The notes beneath the pieces are model-generated. The model saw only the letters and a list, made by a program, of their open reading frames with translations, was not told where the DNA came from and ran no database searches. Of a stretch of 32,061 nucleotides of DNA, positions 1 through 12,280 are shown one piece after another. Both the position numbers and the translations under genes were made by a program. This DNA is from Candidatus Nomurabacteria bacterium (GTDB taxonomy: Bacteria; Patescibacteriota; Minisyncoccia; Phycocordibacterales; UBA2100). Within the stretch, counting starts at the first letter, position 1; every line of letters begins with the position of its first letter. The DNA is taken from assembly GCA_943356775.1 (NCBI GenBank), contig CALRFU010000010.1, positions 1-32,061 on the forward strand. The letters run 5' to 3'.

Positions 1-1345
1 GCGAACGTGCGGAAGAAATATGTGAGCCAGAAATATTTCCGCCGTTCAACGTTGGATTCGTCAGGTCGAGCCCGTCGAGATGTTCTATTCTGCCCACGGC
101 GGCGGCGGACGAATATATATTGGTGATATTTGTGGTGTTTGCGGCAGAAGAAACGAGCATTCTCGAAGAGATTTGCCTGTCGAGTGCGGCAAGCTTTTTA
201 TCAAGCATTTCCTCGCTAATTCCACCGACACTGAGGAGACGGGTCGTCTCCGCAATGCGCTCTATGACCCGTTCGACACGCTCAGGGTAAACGGGATTCG
301 TGATGATTGTTGTAGGTCCGCTTGGCCGCCCTGTGGTCGCAACGGCACGAATGTCGCTCTTCGCGACATTCGCATCATTCGTATACGGTACGACGGACAC
401 CGTGACGGAACCTTTTTCATTTCGCGCGGCGATACCGCGCGAGCTCACAAGGTCGAGAGGAAACGCGACCGCATACACAAAATCATTCACGCCTGAATTC
501 ACGGCGCGGGCGAATGATGCAAACATAGTTGGAATATTTTCCATGAACGCAGCCTGCACCGAAGCGAGTGCAGCTTCCGGATTTTCTGCGGCGGCGGCGA
601 CTTGTGTCTGTGCGCGATTTGCAAACTCGTTCAGTCCCCCGCCTGTCGCCGCGTGATACGAATAGAAAGCAGCATCCACATGCTCTCGCACAGAGTCCGC
701 AGCGAATCGTGCGTATGATGGATCGACCGCAGCATAGGTACCGAAGGTGAGCATGAATGCGAGCGCGAGTGCCACGACCTTGTGGAAAAATTCCATAAGC
801 GGCGTGAGCGTGTAGGCCGGCACATTCGACAGGCTCAGTGCAGGCACATGCGCTCCTGAAAGTGCGGCGTGGGCGAGCCCACCCGGTGTATTCAAAAAAT
901 GTTTTGCGTGCCCGAATCCTTGACGTGTCTGCCCAGCGACCGCAGCCGCCATTTTATTTTTTATTTCATCGGCCCGGCTTGAGATGACGCGGGAAATTTG
1001 GGCAGCCACCGGCGCGGCCACTACGGGCGCCACACTGCTCATCAGCGCGGAAGGCGACTGGACGGAGGGTGTTTTTTCTATGAATTGATTTCCCGTCGCT
1101 TCCTGATACTGTCGCGCCCGCTCGGTGGCGAGGGATTCGCTGCGGAGAGTTTTTGCATATTCTTGAGTGACGAGGAAATTCTTGAGCGACTCCTGTTCAA
1201 CGTACCAATGTTTGCCGACTCGCCTACCTGAGATTTTTCCGTCTCTGCAAAGCCGGGCGACATAGTCTCGAGTGAGGTCGGCTGAGGCAGCCGCATCATT
1301 TGCGGAAATGTAGCGTTTACCGTCAAAAAAGATTTCGTCACTCAT
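1..1345 (-). CDS. HTH-transmembrane-surface repeat protein (partial, C-terminus beyond left edge)
   Basis: This ORF is absent from the track because it has no stop in the window; I translated 448 codons from ATG at 1345. Residues 1-58 form an excisionase/MerR-like helix-turn-helix (ISANDAAASADLTRDYVARL, then RRVGKHWYV). A low-complexity linker follows, and one hydrophobic segment at about 186-206 (VVALALAFMLTFGTYAAV). Beyond it lie a possible coiled coil at about 355-395 and, at the edge, Asn/Gly/Ser-rich repeat-like sequence (GLDLTNPTLNGGNISGSHIS) of the kind seen in beta-helical fibre proteins. The likely topology is DNA-binding domain inside and repeat region outside. The same HTH unit occurs twice in the protein encoded at 1816-2808. 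Function is unknown; a surface fibre with a regulatory head, or a membrane-tethered one-component regulator, would fit. The reading frame is secure, the role is inference. Confidence 0.85.
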   Translation of the reverse strand, partial: MSDEIFFDGKRYISANDAAASADLTRDYVARLCRDGKISGRRVGKHWYVEQESLKNFLVTQEYAKTLRSESLATERARQYQEATGNQFIEKTPSVQSPSALMSSVAPVVAAPVAAQISRVISSRADEIKNKMAAAVAGQTRQGFGHAKHFLNTPGGLAHAALSGAHVPALSLSNVPAYTLTPLMEFFHKVVALALAFMLTFGTYAAVDPSYARFAADSVREHVDAAFYSYHAATGGGLNEFANRAQTQVAAAAENPEAALASVQAAFMENIPTMFASFARAVNSGVNDFVYAVAFPLDLVSSRGIAARNEKGSVTVSVVPYTNDANVAKSDIRAVATTGRPSGPTTIITNPVYPERVERVIERIAETTRLLSVGGISEEMLDKKLAALDRQISSRMLVSSAANTTNITNIYSSAAAVGRIEHLDGLDLTNPTLNGGNISGSHISSARS

Positions 1346-1368
1346 GCATGTTCGGATGCCCGATATAT

Positions 1369-1383
1369 CTAGTATTTTACTAG
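1369..1383. promoter_or_regulatory. Perfect palindrome upstream of the HTH-surface gene, possible operator
   Basis: The sequence CTAGTA-TTT-TACTAG is a perfect 6+6 inverted repeat ending 24 bases upstream of the ATG at 1345. On the minus strand its centre contains TAAAAT, a possible -10 element, and TATATC follows closely. An operator overlapping the promoter of a gene whose product has an HTH domain would fit autoregulation. No convincing -35 was found, so this is inference. Confidence 0.4.
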
Positions 1384-1459
1384 TTATTCTGGATATCCTG
1401 TGGACATCGAGTGGAGAAACGTGTGGATAAGCGAAACCGCCGCGAGGCGCCCGTAGGGG

Positions 1460-1487
1460 CATCATGTCGGCTAATGTCGACATGATG
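1460..1487. repeat. Hairpin with 10-bp perfect stem
   Basis: CATCATGTCG and CGACATGATG flank an 8-base spacer. The right arm also overlaps the self-complementary ATGTCGACAT. It abuts the left repeat unit of the covarying hairpin pair at 1489-1520. Confidence 0.6.
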
Positions 1488-1488
1488 A

Positions 1489-1569
1489 GTTTCGGGCACG
1501 AACGAGCACGTTCGGGCCGCCGCGAGGCGCACGAGGAGTTTCGGGCACGCATGAGCACATGCGGGCCGC
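1489..1569. repeat. Tandem pair of hairpin units with compensatory stem changes
   Basis: Two units share the frame GTTTCGGGCA - 6-bp stem - AGCA loop - stem - GGCCGC. In unit 1 (1489-1520) the stem is CGAACG/CGTTCG; in unit 2 (1538-1569) it is CGCATG/CATGCG. Flanks and loop are identical while the middle stem bases differ on both sides and still pair. That pattern is expected if the folded structure, not the primary sequence, is kept. Both units are followed by ACGAGGAGT-like sequence (about 1531-1539 and 1570-1578). What it does is unknown: an RNA element, a protein-binding cruciform or a REP-like mobile palindrome are all possible. Confidence 0.65.
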
Positions 1570-1612
1570 ACGAGGAGTCAACGCTACCTCGCGAGGTCGC
1601 CCGCAGGAGCCG

Positions 1613-1634
1613 GCCGGCACACGCTTGTGCCGGC
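1613..1634. repeat. GC-rich hairpin, 8-bp stem
   Basis: GCCGGCAC and GTGCCGGC flank a 6-base spacer (ACGCTT). It is very stable, but no T run follows on either strand, so it does not look like an intrinsic terminator. Confidence 0.55.
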
Positions 1635-1685
1635 ACAAACCTCTCGCATCGGCCTTCGGCGGACACACTCTCGTGCGGGTTTAGA

Positions 1686-1705
1686 TATCTCGGCATTCCG
1701 AGATA
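1686..1705. repeat. Hairpin TATCTCGG/CCGAGATA, copy 1
   Basis: An 8-bp stem TATCTCGG/CCGAGATA closes over CATT. The same stem with loop CAT recurs as the secA terminator at 4545-4563, and a half copy CTATCTCGG lies at about 1719. The shared stem suggests a small repeat family in this genome. Confidence 0.5.
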
Positions 1706-1768
1706 CGTATTCACAACCTATCTCGGCCAATAGTTCATGGCCGGGAACCGCACCAGGTATCTTGTTCC

Positions 1769-1793
1769 ATGTTCGACTTCGTAAGTCGAACAT
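1769..1793. terminator. 11-bp hairpin downstream of the second HTH gene
   Basis: ATGTTCGACTT and AAGTCGAACAT enclose a CGT loop, about 22 bases after the stop of the minus-strand gene at 1816. The stem is perfect, but the minus-strand sequence after it has no T tract. It could be a transcript-end stabilising hairpin or a weak terminator, or one more member of the intergenic palindromes. Confidence 0.4.
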
Positions 1794-1815
1794 ATACGAG
1801 CTCAAAGACCAACAC

Positions 1816-2808
1816 CTACTGTACCCTCTTGTAGATGAGTTCTTTTACCAAGAAATTCTGCAGGAAATTCTCAATCCGTTCGAGGGCACCGGCCGCACCG
1901 GCTGTAAACATATTCCTTTCAATAGCTACTCCCCCCCGTATTGTATTCGTGCCATACACTGAACTATTCTTCAGCGTGACGAAGCCGAAGGAGAGGACAA
2001 TGACGATTGTCAGTGCTGCGACTCCAAGAGTCCGGAATGTCCCTTTATATATAGTCTTTCCGGATGTCCGGACTCTCGCTGGGATATGTTTCTCGGTACT
2101 TCTATCCCCAGAATAAGGGTGCGTAGAAGTGGTCATTGTTCGTACCTTACGAATTGGAACCACATACTCTTTATCCAAATCCTCCTCTTGAAAATGAATG
2201 CTTTTTACTTCTTCGTTCTCTGGAATCTCCTTAGCTTTTGGCATTACAGGCAAAAGGTCTCTATTATCACTTGTATAGTTTAAAAATGGTCCTGGGCCAT
2301 TGTAGTGGCTTTTATGGGGCTCTTCCGCGGGGATTGAAACATCATTATTCCTAGAAATACCGACAGATTCTGCCTGTACAGCTCCTAAAAGGTTGTCTTT
2401 TTCTTTTTTATGGGCAAGAATGCCTTCCCTGTCGATATACCATCGATTGCCTACCTGACGCGAGATTATGGCTCCGGAGCGCGCAAGTTGCCCCACGTAA
2501 TCAGGGTGGTATCCCGTTATACTTGCGGCACGGGAGGCAGAAATATGGTCCTTCCCGTCGAACGTGACGAGAGAATCAGCTTCAGGGGCGGTTTTTCTTT
2601 CCGGCTGAGGAGGTACATAGGTATCAGCGTTTGATTTATACTCTGTAAGTGAGACCATCGAGACAAACCAGAGGCCGCCGACTCTTTGAGCATCGATGAG
2701 TCCTTTTCTTGCAAGTTGTCCGATATAATCCTGAGCATAACCGCTTAACTGCGATGCTCGTTTAGACGATATGTACTCCTTACCCTCTAACCACATGGCA
2801 TCAGACAT
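1816..2808 (-). CDS. Double helix-turn-helix membrane-anchored protein
   Basis: The 330-residue product has two excisionase/MerR-like HTH units, at about 9-58 (ISSKRASQLSGYAQDYIGQL ... RVGGLWFV) and 84-133 (ISASRAASITGYHPDYVGQL ... QVGNRWYI). The shared core is GYxxDYxGQLARxGxI. A long polar linker (about 135-255) leads to one membrane segment at about 258-279 (TLGVAALTIVIVLSFGFVTL) and a short C-terminal tail of about 50 residues. Predicted topology is N-in, with the DNA-binding part in the cytoplasm. It begins 64 bases after gatB and may be read from the same transcript. It is related to the HTH protein at 1-1345, which has only one unit. No substrate or target is known. A membrane-tethered transcription factor is the simplest reading. 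Confidence 0.85.
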   Translation of the reverse strand: MSDAMWLEGKEYISSKRASQLSGYAQDYIGQLARKGLIDAQRVGGLWFVSMVSLTEYKSNADTYVPPQPERKTAPEADSLVTFDGKDHISASRAASITGYHPDYVGQLARSGAIISRQVGNRWYIDREGILAHKKEKDNLLGAVQAESVGISRNNDVSIPAEEPHKSHYNGPGPFLNYTSDNRDLLPVMPKAKEIPENEEVKSIHFQEEDLDKEYVVPIRKVRTMTTSTHPYSGDRSTEKHIPARVRTSGKTIYKGTFRTLGVAALTIVIVLSFGFVTLKNSSVYGTNTIRGGVAIERNMFTAGAAGALERIENFLQNFLVKELIYKRVQ

Positions 2809-4544: not shown

Positions 4545-4563
4545 TATCTCGGCATCCGAGATA
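4545..4563 (-). terminator. Intrinsic terminator of secA
   Basis: On the minus strand the stem TATCTCGG/CCGAGATA closes over a 3-base loop immediately after the secA stop codon and is followed by GGCTTATTTTTC. A stem plus U-rich tail in the right place makes this a good rho-independent terminator. Its stem is identical to the hairpin at 1686-1705. Confidence 0.75.
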
Positions 4564-4564
4564 A

Positions 4565-7075
4565 TTATTCTTTGGCAATTTGCCACTCGCCGCTCGCAAG
4601 CAAAGGCTCTGCTTTCTTAAATTTCATCTCACGTCGCTCAGTACCATTCGTGATTGTTACCTTATCATTGCGACCGTGTCCGGTATTCGAAGGCACCCCC
4701 GAAGGTGCAGAAATCGTCCGTACCGCCTTGTGGATAACCTGCTCGGCTTTCGGTGCCCGTACTCCCCCCGTGGTCATGTTCGGCAGCACATTTGCAACCT
4801 GCGCCATATACGAATTCTCCATCGTCTGAAATAGTTTGAGGCCTTCTTTTTTGTACTCAACAAGCGGGTCACGTTGACCATATGCGCGAAGATTCACCGA
4901 GTTGCGGAGATACTCCATCGCCTCCAAATGTTCTACCCAAAGAAAATCTACTGTTTGCAAAAGGAATCGCCGCGTCATTGGATAGAACCCGTCTCCCAAT
5001 TCTTTTTTCTTCGATTCAATCATCTCTGCGAATCCTTCGTTCGATTCTGCAATACGCGTGAGCTCTTCGTCTATCGCGGAAATATCCCCGGTGAGGAGCG
5101 CACGACGACGCGTGTATATGCTTTGGCGTTGGATATTGAGAACGTCGTCGTACGAGAGTACGTGTTTGCGTGCATCAAAATTTAACTCTTCGATGCGCGT
5201 TTGCGCCTTCTCGAGCGCACGCGTTATCATCGAATTATAAATAGGCTCATCCTCGGGAATCTTAAACGTGCCCATGACACGCTTGATGACATCTGAGGCA
5301 AAGACACGCATGAGTGAATCCTCGAGCGAGACGAAAAACTGCGTCTCCCCTGGGTCTCCCTGTCGCCCGCTTCTTCCTCGCAGCTGATTGTCTATGCGAC
5401 GTGCTTCATGGCGCTCGGTGCCCAAGAGGAAGAGTCCGCCAGTCTTTTTTACTTCTTCAGACGCCTCATCACTCCCCGGATTCCCACCGAGCTTGATGTC
5501 GACACCGCGACCAGCCATGTTGGTCGCGATGGTGACGCCCCCCCTCTTCCCTGCCTGTGCGATGATTTCACCTTCTCGTTCGTGATTCTTCGCATTCAAT
5601 ATTTCGTGCGGGATTCCTTCCTGTTTAAAATGCGCTGAGAGGATTTCATTCTTCTCGACGGATACGGTACCGACCAAGACAGGCTGCCCTTTCTCATGCA
5701 ATTCGCGCACATGCCGCGCAATGGCCTTCATTTTTCCAGATTCGCTTTGGAAGATAAGGTCCTCGTGGTCTTTTCGCACCGCTACTTTGTTGGTCGGGAC
5801 GACGACGGTATTGAGCCCATAGACCTTGTAAAACTCCTCTGAGGAGGTCACCGCTGTACCTGTCATGCCCGCAAGTTTTTTATATAGACGGAAGTAATTC
5901 TGGAAAGTAATCGAAGCAAACGTTCTCGATTCTTGCTGCATCTCTACCCCCTCTTTTGATTCGATCGCTTGATGCAAGCCTTCAGACCAGCGTCTGCCCG
6001 GTTGTAAGCGGCCGGTAAACTCATCCACGATAACAATTGCGCCATCCTTCACGACATATTCCTTATCCCGCGCAAAAAGCGCCTTGGCACGGACGGCAGT
6101 CTCCAGGTGGTGCACGTACTTGATACCCGCATCGGTATAGATATTCTCAACACCGAGCGCACGCTGCGCCTTCTCGATGCCGCTATCGGTCAAGGATATT
6201 TGCTTGTGCTTGTGCTCAACCTCATAGTCTTCGTCTTGTATGAGCGACGCTGCTATCTGAGTGAAGCGTCCGTAGAGGGATTCAGCGTCGGAAACGGGAG
6301 CAGAAATGATGAGCGGCGTACGGGCTTCATCGATGAGGATGGAGTCTATCTCGTCGACGATAGCAAAGTGATAGGTATGCTGTCGTAAATTCCCTGATTC
6401 GTATTCCAGATTATCGCGCAGATAGTCGAAGCCGAATTCGTTGTTGGTACCGTAGGTGATATCAGCGGCATACGCCTCCCGTCTCGTACAAGGCCTGAGA
6501 AAATCCTGCATGACCTTGAATGCGCCCATCGTATCCCTTTCCGCATCCTCCTGCGCCAAAACTTCAGAGGACATGTGCGTGGGGTCATAGATGAATGATG
6601 CTTCGTGATTAATGATGCCCACCGAGAGCCCGAGCGCGTAGTAAATCTCGCCCATCCAGACTGCGTCGCGTCGCGAGAGGTAGTCGTTGACGGTAACAAT
6701 GTGCACGCCCTTCCCCGAAAGTGCGTTGAGGTACGCGGGGAGAGTCGCGACGAGAGTCTTTCCTTCTCCGGTGCGCATCTCGGCAATATCGCCGCGATGA
6801 AGTATCATGCCTCCTATAAGCTGAACGTCGAAATGTCTCTGACCCAAGGTACGCCGCGACGCCTCCCGCACCGCAGCAAAGGCTTCCGGGGCAATCTCAT
6901 CCAAGGTGGCACCCTCAAGAAGCCGCCCCTTGAATTCAGCGGTCTTTTCTTTCAGCGCCAGGTCGGAGAGCGCTTTCATTCCCTCCTCCTGCGCATTGGT
7001 GACCGCAACGATAGGCTCGGCGGCCCGTAGAGCTGCGAGATTCTCATCCCCAAATAGCCTCTTCCAAAATGTCAT
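4565..7075 (-). CDS. secA: Preprotein translocase motor ATPase SecA
   Basis: SecA drives unfolded preproteins through SecYEG at the inner face of the membrane using ATP. The product has Walker A MRTGEGKT (about 100-107), the DEAD-type VDEIDSILIDEARTPLIISA, the preprotein cross-linking domain, motif MAGRGVDIKLGGNPG, QLRGRSGRQGDPG, and the helical scaffold with FLWVEHLEAMEYLRN. It is 836 residues long. The usual C-terminal cysteine-rich zinc motif that binds SecB is missing; the protein ends in EWQIAKE. That is common in lineages without SecB. ATG at 7075 gives the normal SecA N-terminus, with a possible AGGA ribosome site 8 bases upstream. It is flanked by terminators on both sides, so it is probably transcribed alone. 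Confidence 0.97.
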   Translation of the reverse strand: MTFWKRLFGDENLAALRAAEPIVAVTNAQEEGMKALSDLALKEKTAEFKGRLLEGATLDEIAPEAFAAVREASRRTLGQRHFDVQLIGGMILHRGDIAEMRTGEGKTLVATLPAYLNALSGKGVHIVTVNDYLSRRDAVWMGEIYYALGLSVGIINHEASFIYDPTHMSSEVLAQEDAERDTMGAFKVMQDFLRPCTRREAYAADITYGTNNEFGFDYLRDNLEYESGNLRQHTYHFAIVDEIDSILIDEARTPLIISAPVSDAESLYGRFTQIAASLIQDEDYEVEHKHKQISLTDSGIEKAQRALGVENIYTDAGIKYVHHLETAVRAKALFARDKEYVVKDGAIVIVDEFTGRLQPGRRWSEGLHQAIESKEGVEMQQESRTFASITFQNYFRLYKKLAGMTGTAVTSSEEFYKVYGLNTVVVPTNKVAVRKDHEDLIFQSESGKMKAIARHVRELHEKGQPVLVGTVSVEKNEILSAHFKQEGIPHEILNAKNHEREGEIIAQAGKRGGVTIATNMAGRGVDIKLGGNPGSDEASEEVKKTGGLFLLGTERHEARRIDNQLRGRSGRQGDPGETQFFVSLEDSLMRVFASDVIKRVMGTFKIPEDEPIYNSMITRALEKAQTRIEELNFDARKHVLSYDDVLNIQRQSIYTRRRALLTGDISAIDEELTRIAESNEGFAEMIESKKKELGDGFYPMTRRFLLQTVDFLWVEHLEAMEYLRNSVNLRAYGQRDPLVEYKKEGLKLFQTMENSYMAQVANVLPNMTTGGVRAPKAEQVIHKAVRTISAPSGVPSNTGHGRNDKVTITNGTERREMKFKKAEPLLASGEWQIAKE

Positions 7076-7250: not shown

Positions 7251-7442
7251 ATAAATATTTTTTGTTTGAGTGTTAAGCTCGACCCGCACTTGCGCAGTGA
7301 TGCGAAGGTGCGATTACTATTTCATTATTGCACTCAAGCGCTCACACATCACAAACATCGCAGAGGAATGTGGATAACTTTTCTTTTGTTTTCTTCGAAG
7401 TGTCGACAAAAAAATCTAGAGAAAAAAATATTGTACGCTCAG

Positions 7443-9728: not shown

Positions 9729-10595
9729 TCACTGGGTTTTCCGTTTTCTATTTGGGACGCGACCGTGGTCATCCTCGAGCCGGACGATGTCTTCTTCACT
9801 AAATGTCCCGTATGCGACTTCGACAATAACTCCGCCCCTCTTAGAAGACAGCCGGTGTACCTGCTTTTTTCCGACACGGAATACTTCCCCCTTGCGAAGA
9901 GGTATCGTGAGTTCTTCTTTGCCTTCGTGCACTGTTGCGGTCGCGTCGCCCTCGACAAGCAGCCACCATTCTTCGCGATGATGGTGGTACTGCAAGCTCA
10001 AGCGCTTCCCCGGCTTCACATAAATAGTTTTAAGGTTCCATTCTTCGCCTTGATCCCATCCGTAATATTCCCCCCACGGACGGACGCTCTTAGATGCGGG
10101 ACGTCGCGAATTACTAATCATCCATGAAGACGATTGCACCTTGCCTCCCTGTCCCACATTAAAAACCATTTTGATTCCCAGCTTCTTGCACACAGCGACT
10201 TCTGGGACATTTTTTGAGAATCTGTCGCCGCCATTCGCGAAAATATCCGGTCGTACCTTTTCGAGCGTCCGCGAGACGCTTTTGTCGGCATCACCTTTCT
10301 TGTGGTCGGTAAATACGACTTTATCAACGAACGGAAGGTGGCGAATTATTTCTGCACGCTCTTTCTGCGGCATAAATGTAAAGCCCTTCTTGCTGCGGAG
10401 CCAATTGTCATTGTTCATAATGACGACGAGCTTGTCACCGAGCTGCCTCGCTTCGCGAAACATCCGTATATGCCCGATGTGAATCGGGTCAAAGCCGCCC
10501 GATACCGCTACCCAGACGGGACTGCGATTTGTAGCCGCGCTCAGCGCGGACAAATCGGGAGCCCAGACAGGAGATTTCTTCTTCTGCTTCTGCAT
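9729..10595 (-). CDS. Nucleotidyltransferase-cupin fusion (HxGH transferase plus mannose-6-phosphate isomerase type II-like domain)
   Basis: Residues about 27-150 are a cytidylyltransferase-fold domain with GGFDPIHIGHIRMFREAR (33-50; HIGH at 39-42), NNDNWL, and NGGDRF. This resembles sugar-phosphate or glycerol-phosphate nucleotidyltransferases (RfaE C-domain, TagD). Residues about 172-278 match the cupin that ends ManC/type II mannose-6-phosphate isomerases: RPWGEYYGWDQGEEW, KTIYVKPGKRLSLQYHHHRE, VHRL, and SEEDIVRLEDDHGR. Metal ligands H203/H205 and H247 are present. The ManC guanylyltransferase domain is absent, so the cupin is attached to an unrelated transferase. It may isomerise a sugar phosphate and activate it, or only sense it. 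I start at ATG 10595; the longer track ORF begins at TTG. It is followed after 13 bases by the ligase gene. Confidence 0.82.
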   Translation of the reverse strand: MQKQKKKSPVWAPDLSALSAATNRSPVWVAVSGGFDPIHIGHIRMFREARQLGDKLVVIMNNDNWLRSKKGFTFMPQKERAEIIRHLPFVDKVVFTDHKKGDADKSVSRTLEKVRPDIFANGGDRFSKNVPEVAVCKKLGIKMVFNVGQGGKVQSSSWMISNSRRPASKSVRPWGEYYGWDQGEEWNLKTIYVKPGKRLSLQYHHHREEWWLLVEGDATATVHEGKEELTIPLRKGEVFRVGKKQVHRLSSKRGGVIVEVAYGTFSEEDIVRLEDDHGRVPNRKRKTQ

Positions 10596-10657
10596 TGGCA
10601 GAAGTATGCACTTCCCGGCCTTCCCGTGCAACCAAATCTCCCGTCCGTCCTTATTCT

Positions 10658-11160: not shown

Positions 11161-11239
11161 TACACTGAAGGCGGGGTCCGATGACTGATTTCCCTTGCGA
11201 AATAAGCCCGCCGAGGCTACCATGCACAGACAAATCACT

Positions 11240-12280
11240 ATGAAAAAAGCCCTTATAACAGGAATCACCGGCCAAGACGGCTCCTACCTCGCAGAATTGC
11301 TGCTTGAAAAGGGCTATGAGGTGCATGGAATCATTCGCCGTTCCAGCAGCTTCAACACCGGTCGCATCGAGAATATCCTGCAAGATCCTCACGAGAAGGA
11401 TGTCCGGCTGTTTCTCCATTACGGCGACCTATCTGATACAAGTAGTTTGAACCGCATCCTCGAGAGAGTGAAGCCGGATGAGATATATCACCTCGGCGCG
11501 CAAAGCCATGTGCGCGTAAGCTTCGACATCCCCGAATATACCGCCGATGTGGATGCGCTCGGTACGTTGCGCATGCTCGATGCGATTCGTGAGACCGGAA
11601 TCAAGACGCGTTTCTATCAGGCCTCATCTTCCGAGATGTTTGGCAAGGCTGCGGAGGTTCCGCAAAAGGAGACAACCCCATTCCATCCGCGCTCACCGTA
11701 TGGATGCGCGAAGGTTTTCGGATTCTGGATTGCGAAGAATTATCGCGAGAGCTACGGGCTCTTTGCAGTCAACGGAATCCTCTTCAATCACGAATCACCT
11801 CGTCGTGGCGAGACATTCGTCACACGCAAAGTGACCGCAGGAATGTCGCGGATCAAGTGTGGTATGCAGGAAAAGATCTACCTCGGCAATCTCGACGCAA
11901 AACGAGATTGGGGCTACGCAAAAGATTATGTGGAAGGTATGTGGCGCATGCTTCAGCAGAAAACGCCCGATGATTACATCCTTGCGACGGGCGAGACACA
12001 CTCCGTCCGCGAGCTCGTCGAAGAGGCGGGGAAGATTTTGGGATTTGATATCGTGTGGAAAGGAAAAGGTAAGGAAGAAAAAGGTATCGACAAGAAGACA
12101 GGCAAGACGCTCGTCGAAATAGACCCGCACTACTACCGCCCCGCAGAAGTCGACATCCTCCTCGGTGACGCAACGAAGGCGAAGAAAAAACTCGGCTGGA
12201 AGCCGAAGGTCAAATTCAAAGAGCTTATCCGCATCATGATAGAAGCTGACCTCGCGAGTTTGGACAAAAAAGACGCATGA
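11240..12280 (+). CDS. gmd: GDP-mannose 4,6-dehydratase
   Basis: Gmd converts GDP-D-mannose to GDP-4-keto-6-deoxy-D-mannose, the branch point to GDP-fucose, perosamine, colitose and others. Seen here: Rossmann GITGQDG (8-14), [19 protein letters not shown] (127-135), catalytic YGCAK (Y154, K158), [15 protein letters not shown] and [16 protein letters not shown]. The length is 346 residues, as in the family. The usual active-site Thr of QASTSE is Ser here, a conservative change. The in-frame ATG at 11222 has a better ribosome site (GAGG, 5 bases upstream), so translation may start six codons earlier. It overlaps the next gene by 4 bases. A paralogue lies at 13789. Confidence 0.93.

Follow-up and report, generated by a model that had tools for sequence, protein, structure and literature searches.

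A Helix-Turn-Helix Domain, a Membrane Helix, and a Surface Fibre in One Protein: A Putative Membrane-Tethered Autoregulator in Candidatus Nomurabacteria and Related Bacteria

Introduction

The stretch of DNA considered here (hereafter, the window) comprises the 32,061 nucleotides of contig CALRFU010000010.1 from a Candidatus Nomurabacteria bacterium, and it carries at its left end two neighbouring minus-strand genes whose products, here called P1 and P2, link winged helix-turn-helix (HTH) units directly to a membrane helix and a predicted outside part. We propose, with a probability of roughly 0.58, that P1 is at once a membrane-tethered autoregulator and a surface fibre, with its HTH acting on a dyad that spans the predicted -10 box of the P1 gene, and that P2 is a second membrane-tethered regulator. 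The evidence, all of it computational and drawn from related species that are not independent of one another, consists of the domain layout, the conservation of this layout, a dyad specific to P1-type genes, and the joint change of dyad and HTH; that the HTHs bind DNA, and that P1 rather than P2 occupies the dyad, we infer from these observations.

Domain Organization of P1 and P2

P1 occupies positions 2..1345 of the window (minus strand; 448 residues visible, with the frame open at the contig end) and combines an HTH with a membrane helix, beyond which lies the base of a surface fibre. Its winged HTH (residues 4-58, 1172..1336) bears the recognition helix TRDYVARLCR and is followed by a helix with a conserved L...R..EY pattern (residues 51-85, 1091..1195), which is supported by family conservation and by the AlphaFold2 models of P1 and P2 that we built from fetched relatives. 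The predicted membrane segment, at about residues 186-206 (728..790), follows the family pattern E..HK..AL..A..LTFGTYA.VDP and was recognized from conservation, AlphaFold2, and hydropathy, and the visible outside part (2..727), outlined by conservation and AlphaFold2, consists of a helical neck, a conserved Q/NPV.ER..ET....GGIT region, and the start of the fibre. P2, of 330 residues, lies at 1816..2808 on the same strand and contains a first winged HTH (residues 4-60, 2629..2799; helix QDYIGQLAR), a second winged HTH (residues 81-139, 2392..2568; helix PDYVGQLAR), a membrane helix (residues 253-280, 1969..2052; AlphaFold2 and hydropathy), and, on the outside, a short tail that closes with the conserved EL.Y.R (1819..1968). 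An earlier note made from the letters of this DNA had described the same layout of P2, for which Pfam gives the HTHs and AlphaFold2 both HTHs and membrane helix, and had seen in all three HTHs the core GYxxDYxGQLARxGxI or a variant of it; the cores are indeed GYAQDYIGQLARKGLI and GYHPDYVGQLARSGAI in P2 and the variant DLTRDYVARLCRDGKI in P1. For P1 the note's single HTH and single membrane segment stood, but the repeat-rich fibre that it also described is barely visible in the window, where P1 breaks off at the contig edge within the helical neck and the first beta-like residues; the fibre and the C-terminus of this P1 lie off the contig, and the fibre is described below from relatives.

The profile search that the note had called for found Pfam HTH_17 (PF12728) once in P1 (residues 12-58, E 2.2e-5, 25.1 bits, just below the curated cut-off of 27) and twice in P2 (E 2e-7, 31.5 bits, above the cut-off). 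AlphaFold2 predicts all three HTHs at high confidence (predicted local distance difference test, pLDDT, ~96-98; ~97 for that of P1) in the order strand-strand-helix-helix-strand-strand-helix, so that the absence of an HTH fold, named in the note as grounds for rejection, was not what the models gave. The nearest solved DNA-bound folds are those of the excisionases (Xis), BldC, the MerR-type proteins MtaN and SoxR, and RacA, although structural Z-scores of 5-7 over ~55 residues indicate a common small fold rather than family membership; for the tandem HTH of P2 the best Foldseek match is TraN, itself a tandem winged-HTH DNA-binding protein. A sequence search against solved structures yielded no relative. 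Pfam searched to E 10 gave only HTH_17 and a weak MerR_2 match, with no OmpR-type winged HTH; nor was HTH_25 matched in P1 or P2 at that threshold, at which weak matches may be filtered out. The residues of the recognition helix and the wing are strongly conserved.

Hydropathy windows and the helices of the AlphaFold2 models were the only criteria by which membrane segments were judged. The predicted helices cover residues 253-280 of P2 and 177-207 of P1. In the relatives that were fetched, the sequence beyond the HTH contains a membrane-like window in 94% of the P1-type and 98% of the P2-type proteins, as against 23% of control open reading frames (ORFs) of similar length, with several of the lowest-scoring cases being truncated sequences. 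The note had also allowed that these segments might be buried rather than membrane-spanning, which their family-wide occurrence argues against. Lysine plus arginine per 20 residues is higher on the HTH side than on the other side, clearly in P2 (4.4 vs 1.9) and weakly in P1 (2.6 vs 1.8). The N-terminus of P1 with its HTH would face the cytoplasm.

Conservation and the Fibre in Relatives

Each of P1 and P2 has matches in 28 of 41 related genomes, a recurrence that argues against chance as the source of the layout and of the shared HTH core. The genome of the window falls within the Kaiserbacteria group (Patescibacteria), and the named relatives are mostly Candidatus Kaiserbacteria, together with other Paceibacterota. 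In most loci that were read the order is secA, gatB, P2, P1, as it is in the window, where P2 and then P1 lie downstream of secA and gatB, all on one strand; exceptions include the genome G001 (G and L numbers are our handles for genomes and loci). P2 is usually single in a genome and adjoins P1, and its two HTHs are near-identical and strongly conserved. Within the family a match is present in 61 of 70 genomes, the longest open frame having 5,980 residues. Sampling of the order more widely gave the HTH domain in 141 of 297 genomes, with more than 30 of the matches listed lying in open frames of over 1,000 residues.

The recurrent layout of P1 is an N-terminal HTH, one membrane-like segment at about residue 165, and a fibre-like body. 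Complete relatives measure 1,366, 1,959, 2,256, 3,115, and 4,051 residues, and another, read across two stretches, about 5,390. Peptidase_S74 stands near the C-terminus of three of them (L071, L075, and L162), L067, L121, and L149 end otherwise, and two relatives match PHROG tail-fibre or virion-structure families. An assembly error as the origin of the HTH-fibre fusion was ruled out, because the open frame is found in many independent genomes, including the complete chromosome CP066682.1 (L121). Two further observations concern these relatives: the giant proteins L073, L074, L075, and L071 have the short motif LC..D.CV/IT..QL in common at their C-termini, ahead of a tail rich in Pro, Glu, and Thr, and the P1-type gene at L124:12763-21477 has its HTH unit of ~60 residues exactly duplicated in tandem.

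A Dyad at the P1 Promoter

Upstream of P1 starts we find a dyad, newly found here, of the form CGAnnTAnCTA - N8/9 - TAGnTAnnTCG, the spacer of which holds a -10-like TARAAT. It usually lies 10-50 nt before the start codon, in DNA that is otherwise dissimilar between relatives. The copy in the window, CAGAATAACTA-GTAAAATAC-TAGATATATCG (1361..1391, minus strand), has two mismatches to the consensus, covers the predicted -10 box TAAAAT, and stands 15 nt before the P1 start. The palindromes between 1346 and 1815, which the earlier note had put forward as HTH sites, are for the most part local repeats, and this dyad is the sole one among them conserved across species.

With up to three mismatches allowed, the dyad is present upstream of 46 of 96 single-HTH genes; the corresponding counts are 1 of 59 for P2 genes, 4 of 393 for other ORFs, and 1 of 960 for shuffled sequences, the lone "P2" being a P1-type gene of G001 that was classed there for its two HTHs. 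The single-HTH set includes genes of distant families with a P2-like recognition helix, DYxGQL, and when these are set apart the dyad or its right half precedes 53 of 70 non-DYxGQL genes vs 1 of 26 DYxGQL genes (Fisher 7e-11). At one mismatch or fewer, 31 sites occur in 1.44 Mb of fetched loci; 27 are upstream of family genes, and a 28th closes a contig at the point expected for a P1 start. The exact core pattern has six matches in 25 whole genomes, all upstream of P1, and a looser scan with fixed spacing over 26 genomes hit one place per genome in nine of them, most at P1 and a few likely by chance; a match in G032 was rejected as a P1 site, there being no P1 gene nearby.

Joint Change of HTH and Dyad

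The paralogs L207 (in G022) and L236 (in G340), from different species and with HTHs 50% identical, share a changed helix, ..NYISK[LM]C, and the wing GTKLV. Their dyads are changed as well, to TGGAAAAACTA-N9-TAGTTTTTCCA and TGGAAAGACTA-N9-TAGATTTTCCT, with the same altered half-site TAGnTTTTCC in both. Each of the two genomes has, besides an ordinary P2, a further P1 in which both HTH and dyad are of the common kind; in G022 a third P1 paralog (L075) differs again in its HTH and carries a third dyad. Across a set of 49 genes, the distance between HTHs correlates with the distance between dyads (Mantel r 0.34, reached in 3 of 2000 permutations), a test that is confounded by descent, and the contrast between paralogs within one genome is the better argument.

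Proposed Mechanism and Its Weighing

In the mechanism that we favour, the N-terminal winged HTH of P1 would stay in the cytoplasm while the fibre is membrane-anchored, and would bind the dyad that covers the -10 box of the P1 gene, with the result that fibre already made, or in the making, would limit further P1 transcription: an autogenous, membrane-tethered control. Repression is the expected sign because the dyad sits over the -10 box. P2 would add a second input at the locus in the manner of CadC and ToxR, but with HTHs of the excisionase/MerR type. Of the readings offered in the earlier note for the link between HTH and surface protein, a coupling between synthesis of the fibre and the gene that encodes it is the one favoured, by the P1-specific -10 dyad that changes with the HTH, the one-component sensor survives in part, in the layout of P2, and tethering of the chromosome or envelope would be a side effect of anchoring a DNA-binding protein in the membrane. 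A bolder form of the proposal, which we consider tentative and somewhat short of even odds, is that of self-counting fibres, each being its own tethered transcription factor, with private dyads by which paralogs are separately regulated through paired HTH-operator codes, and with the locus held at the membrane site of export.

Several observations weigh against autoregulation by P1. Its membrane segment has only moderate hydrophobicity and a weak positive-inside signal, and cleavage after ..GTYA would separate the fibre from the HTH. In some P1 genes (L013, L251) the usual HTH goes with an altered outer half-site, in others no dyad was found within 130 nt, and in G008 and G014 an inserted ORF puts ~500 nt between the dyad and the P1 start codon (L063:3903-4490; L077:1070-1558). 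Part of the conserved right half of the dyad could be core promoter, and, with the Mantel test confounded as described, the decisive covariation comes down to two paralogs and a few supporting cases.

Among the alternatives, the one that survives best, though we think it unlikely, is that P2 alone regulates, as a tandem-HTH, membrane-tethered one-component sensor that binds the P1 dyad in trans, with the HTH of P1 serving as an anchor or interaction surface. The usual single P2 beside P1, with its two near-identical HTHs, would suit such a role, as would its likeness to the two-winged-HTH repressor TraN (PMC10877727) and the precedent of CadC, where a DNA binder of such a layout, with a single membrane helix, works (PMC6320335). 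Against it, P1 paralogs of one genome carry different dyads that match their own HTHs beside one and the same P2, and G001 (99% complete), in which P2 is not detectable, keeps a perfect dyad at its P1 with two HTHs. Moreover, the dyad is missing from genes with P2-type helices, which more often have CCGAGAT or its complement upstream (27 of 59 P2 and 8 of 26 single-HTH DYxGQL genes, vs 3 of 70 P1-type genes and 12 of 393 other ORFs). That each HTH class tends toward its own motif is as expected if every class regulates itself.

Somewhat less probable still is that signal peptidase cuts P1 between ..GTYA and VDP, leaving a short membrane-held HTH regulator equal in number to the fibre. The small residues that are conserved beyond the hydrophobic stretch (LTFGTYA.VDP) would permit this, the site having been read by eye rather than by a program, but the segment and the neck that follows it are conserved together. 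It is also improbable, and a shade more so, that the HTHs are scaffold modules that bind no DNA, the dyad being a feature of the P1 promoter for another factor. The HTH of RodZ acts as a protein-protein module for MreB, and the HTH domains here are nearly charge-neutral (mean lysine plus arginine vs aspartate plus glutamate 10.0 vs 8.1 in P1 and 7.6 vs 7.5 in P2); set against this are the conserved residues of recognition helix and wing, the DNA-bound nearest folds, and the covariation of dyad and HTH. A nucleoid tether, in which many fibres would hold DNA at the membrane in the manner of RacA, a MerR-type DNA-binding protein among the structural matches, with regulation as the by-product, is very unlikely, given that the sites, where searched for, are one or few per genome and stand at fibre promoters rather than being dispersed.

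Other Elements of the Locus

A 9-nt element, TTATCCACA, lies upstream of both P1 (1422..1430) and P2 (2851..2859) on the minus strand. The genome contains it ten times without mismatch, and four of these occurrences (the two just given, 4729-4737, and 7369-7377) lie within 6 kb of the locus and on the secA-gatB-P2-P1 strand. Its reading as a plain DnaA box was rejected: no box was found near dnaA in the genome, and copies are scattered in the complete relative G318. The motif ATCC[AC]CA precedes 47 of 70 P1-type genes, 12 of 26 DYxGQL single-HTH genes, and 36 of 59 P2 genes, vs 8 of 393 other ORFs. A palindrome, TATCTCGG-CATT-CCGAGATA (1686..1705, strand not assigned), matches the motif CCGAGAT, which is enriched upstream of DYxGQL-class HTH genes; a similar TATCTCGG/CCGAGATA palindrome stands at 4545-4563, between gatB and secA, and TATCTCGG is observed five times in the window vs 1.1 expected. 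An unbiased inverted-repeat scan for a conserved dyad upstream of P2 gave a result merely slightly above control. Between P2 and P1, two 40-nt direct repeats (1481-1569; 85% identical, 49 nt apart) each contain a small hairpin.

Farther along the window, a long run of genes (9729-32059) resembles nucleotide-sugar enzymes, glycosyltransferases, and a flippase and is probably a surface polysaccharide cluster; named from sequence alone, it includes a GDP-mannose dehydratase-like gene (11195-12280) and an ORF (9729-10631) that looks like a fusion of a cytidylyltransferase-type domain with a mannose-6-phosphate isomerase-like cupin.

Implications

Tethered transcription factors with small sensors are known, but we did not find a giant fibre described as a tethered factor in the open-licence literature. 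If the proposal holds, it would give bacteria with small genomes a one-protein control of the copy number of very costly surface proteins, and would do so commonly in the sampled order, as judged by the frequency of the HTH domain (141/297 genomes). It would also provide natural HTH-operator pairs from which excisionase/MerR-type DNA recognition could be read, and a testable handle on Patescibacteria surface proteins that may touch hosts.

Comparison with Known Systems

No earlier description of the HTH-membrane-fibre architecture was found in limited searches of the open-licence literature, and the nearest systems each share a part of it. Giant membrane-bound surface proteins of Absconditicoccaceae are reported as candidates for host contact, and the excerpted text of that study does not mention a DNA-binding head such as that of P1 (PMC13059738). 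Trimeric fibres of the phage tail and endosialidase type have a fibre part and a C-terminal S74 domain, as do several P1 relatives, but P1 is cellular, membrane-anchored, and headed by an HTH. The eukaryotic membrane-bound transcription factor MYRF combines a DNA-binding head, a self-cleaving phage-type S74/ICA chaperone, and a membrane helix (PMC3742443), in the order DNA-binding domain - ICA/S74 - membrane helix, whereas P1 relatives have HTH - membrane helix - fibre - S74; cleavage by S74 therefore cannot free the head in these relatives, where the membrane helix separates the HTH from S74.

TraN of plasmid pIP501 acts as a repressor of transfer genes and controls its own gene as well (PMC10877727), and P2 resembles it in having two MerR/excisionase-like winged HTHs per chain; TraN, however, is cytosolic, without a membrane helix or a fibre neighbour, whereas 98% of P2 homologs have such a helix. 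CadC is a membrane-integrated one-component regulator that finds its target site from the membrane (PMC6320335), and both P1 and P2 are like CadC and ToxR in joining a DNA-binding domain, cytoplasmic in CadC and ToxR, to a single membrane helix and an outside part. The layout of P2, with its small outside part, would fit the one-component sensor in this respect. The differences are that the HTHs of P1 and P2 are of the excisionase/MerR type (PF12728), in tandem in P2, rather than OmpR-type, and that P1 has outside, in place of a compact sensor, a fibre that can reach thousands of residues. The proposed mechanism would join two principles that are already known, the finding of a site from the membrane, as in CadC, and autoregulation by tandem winged HTHs, as in TraN.

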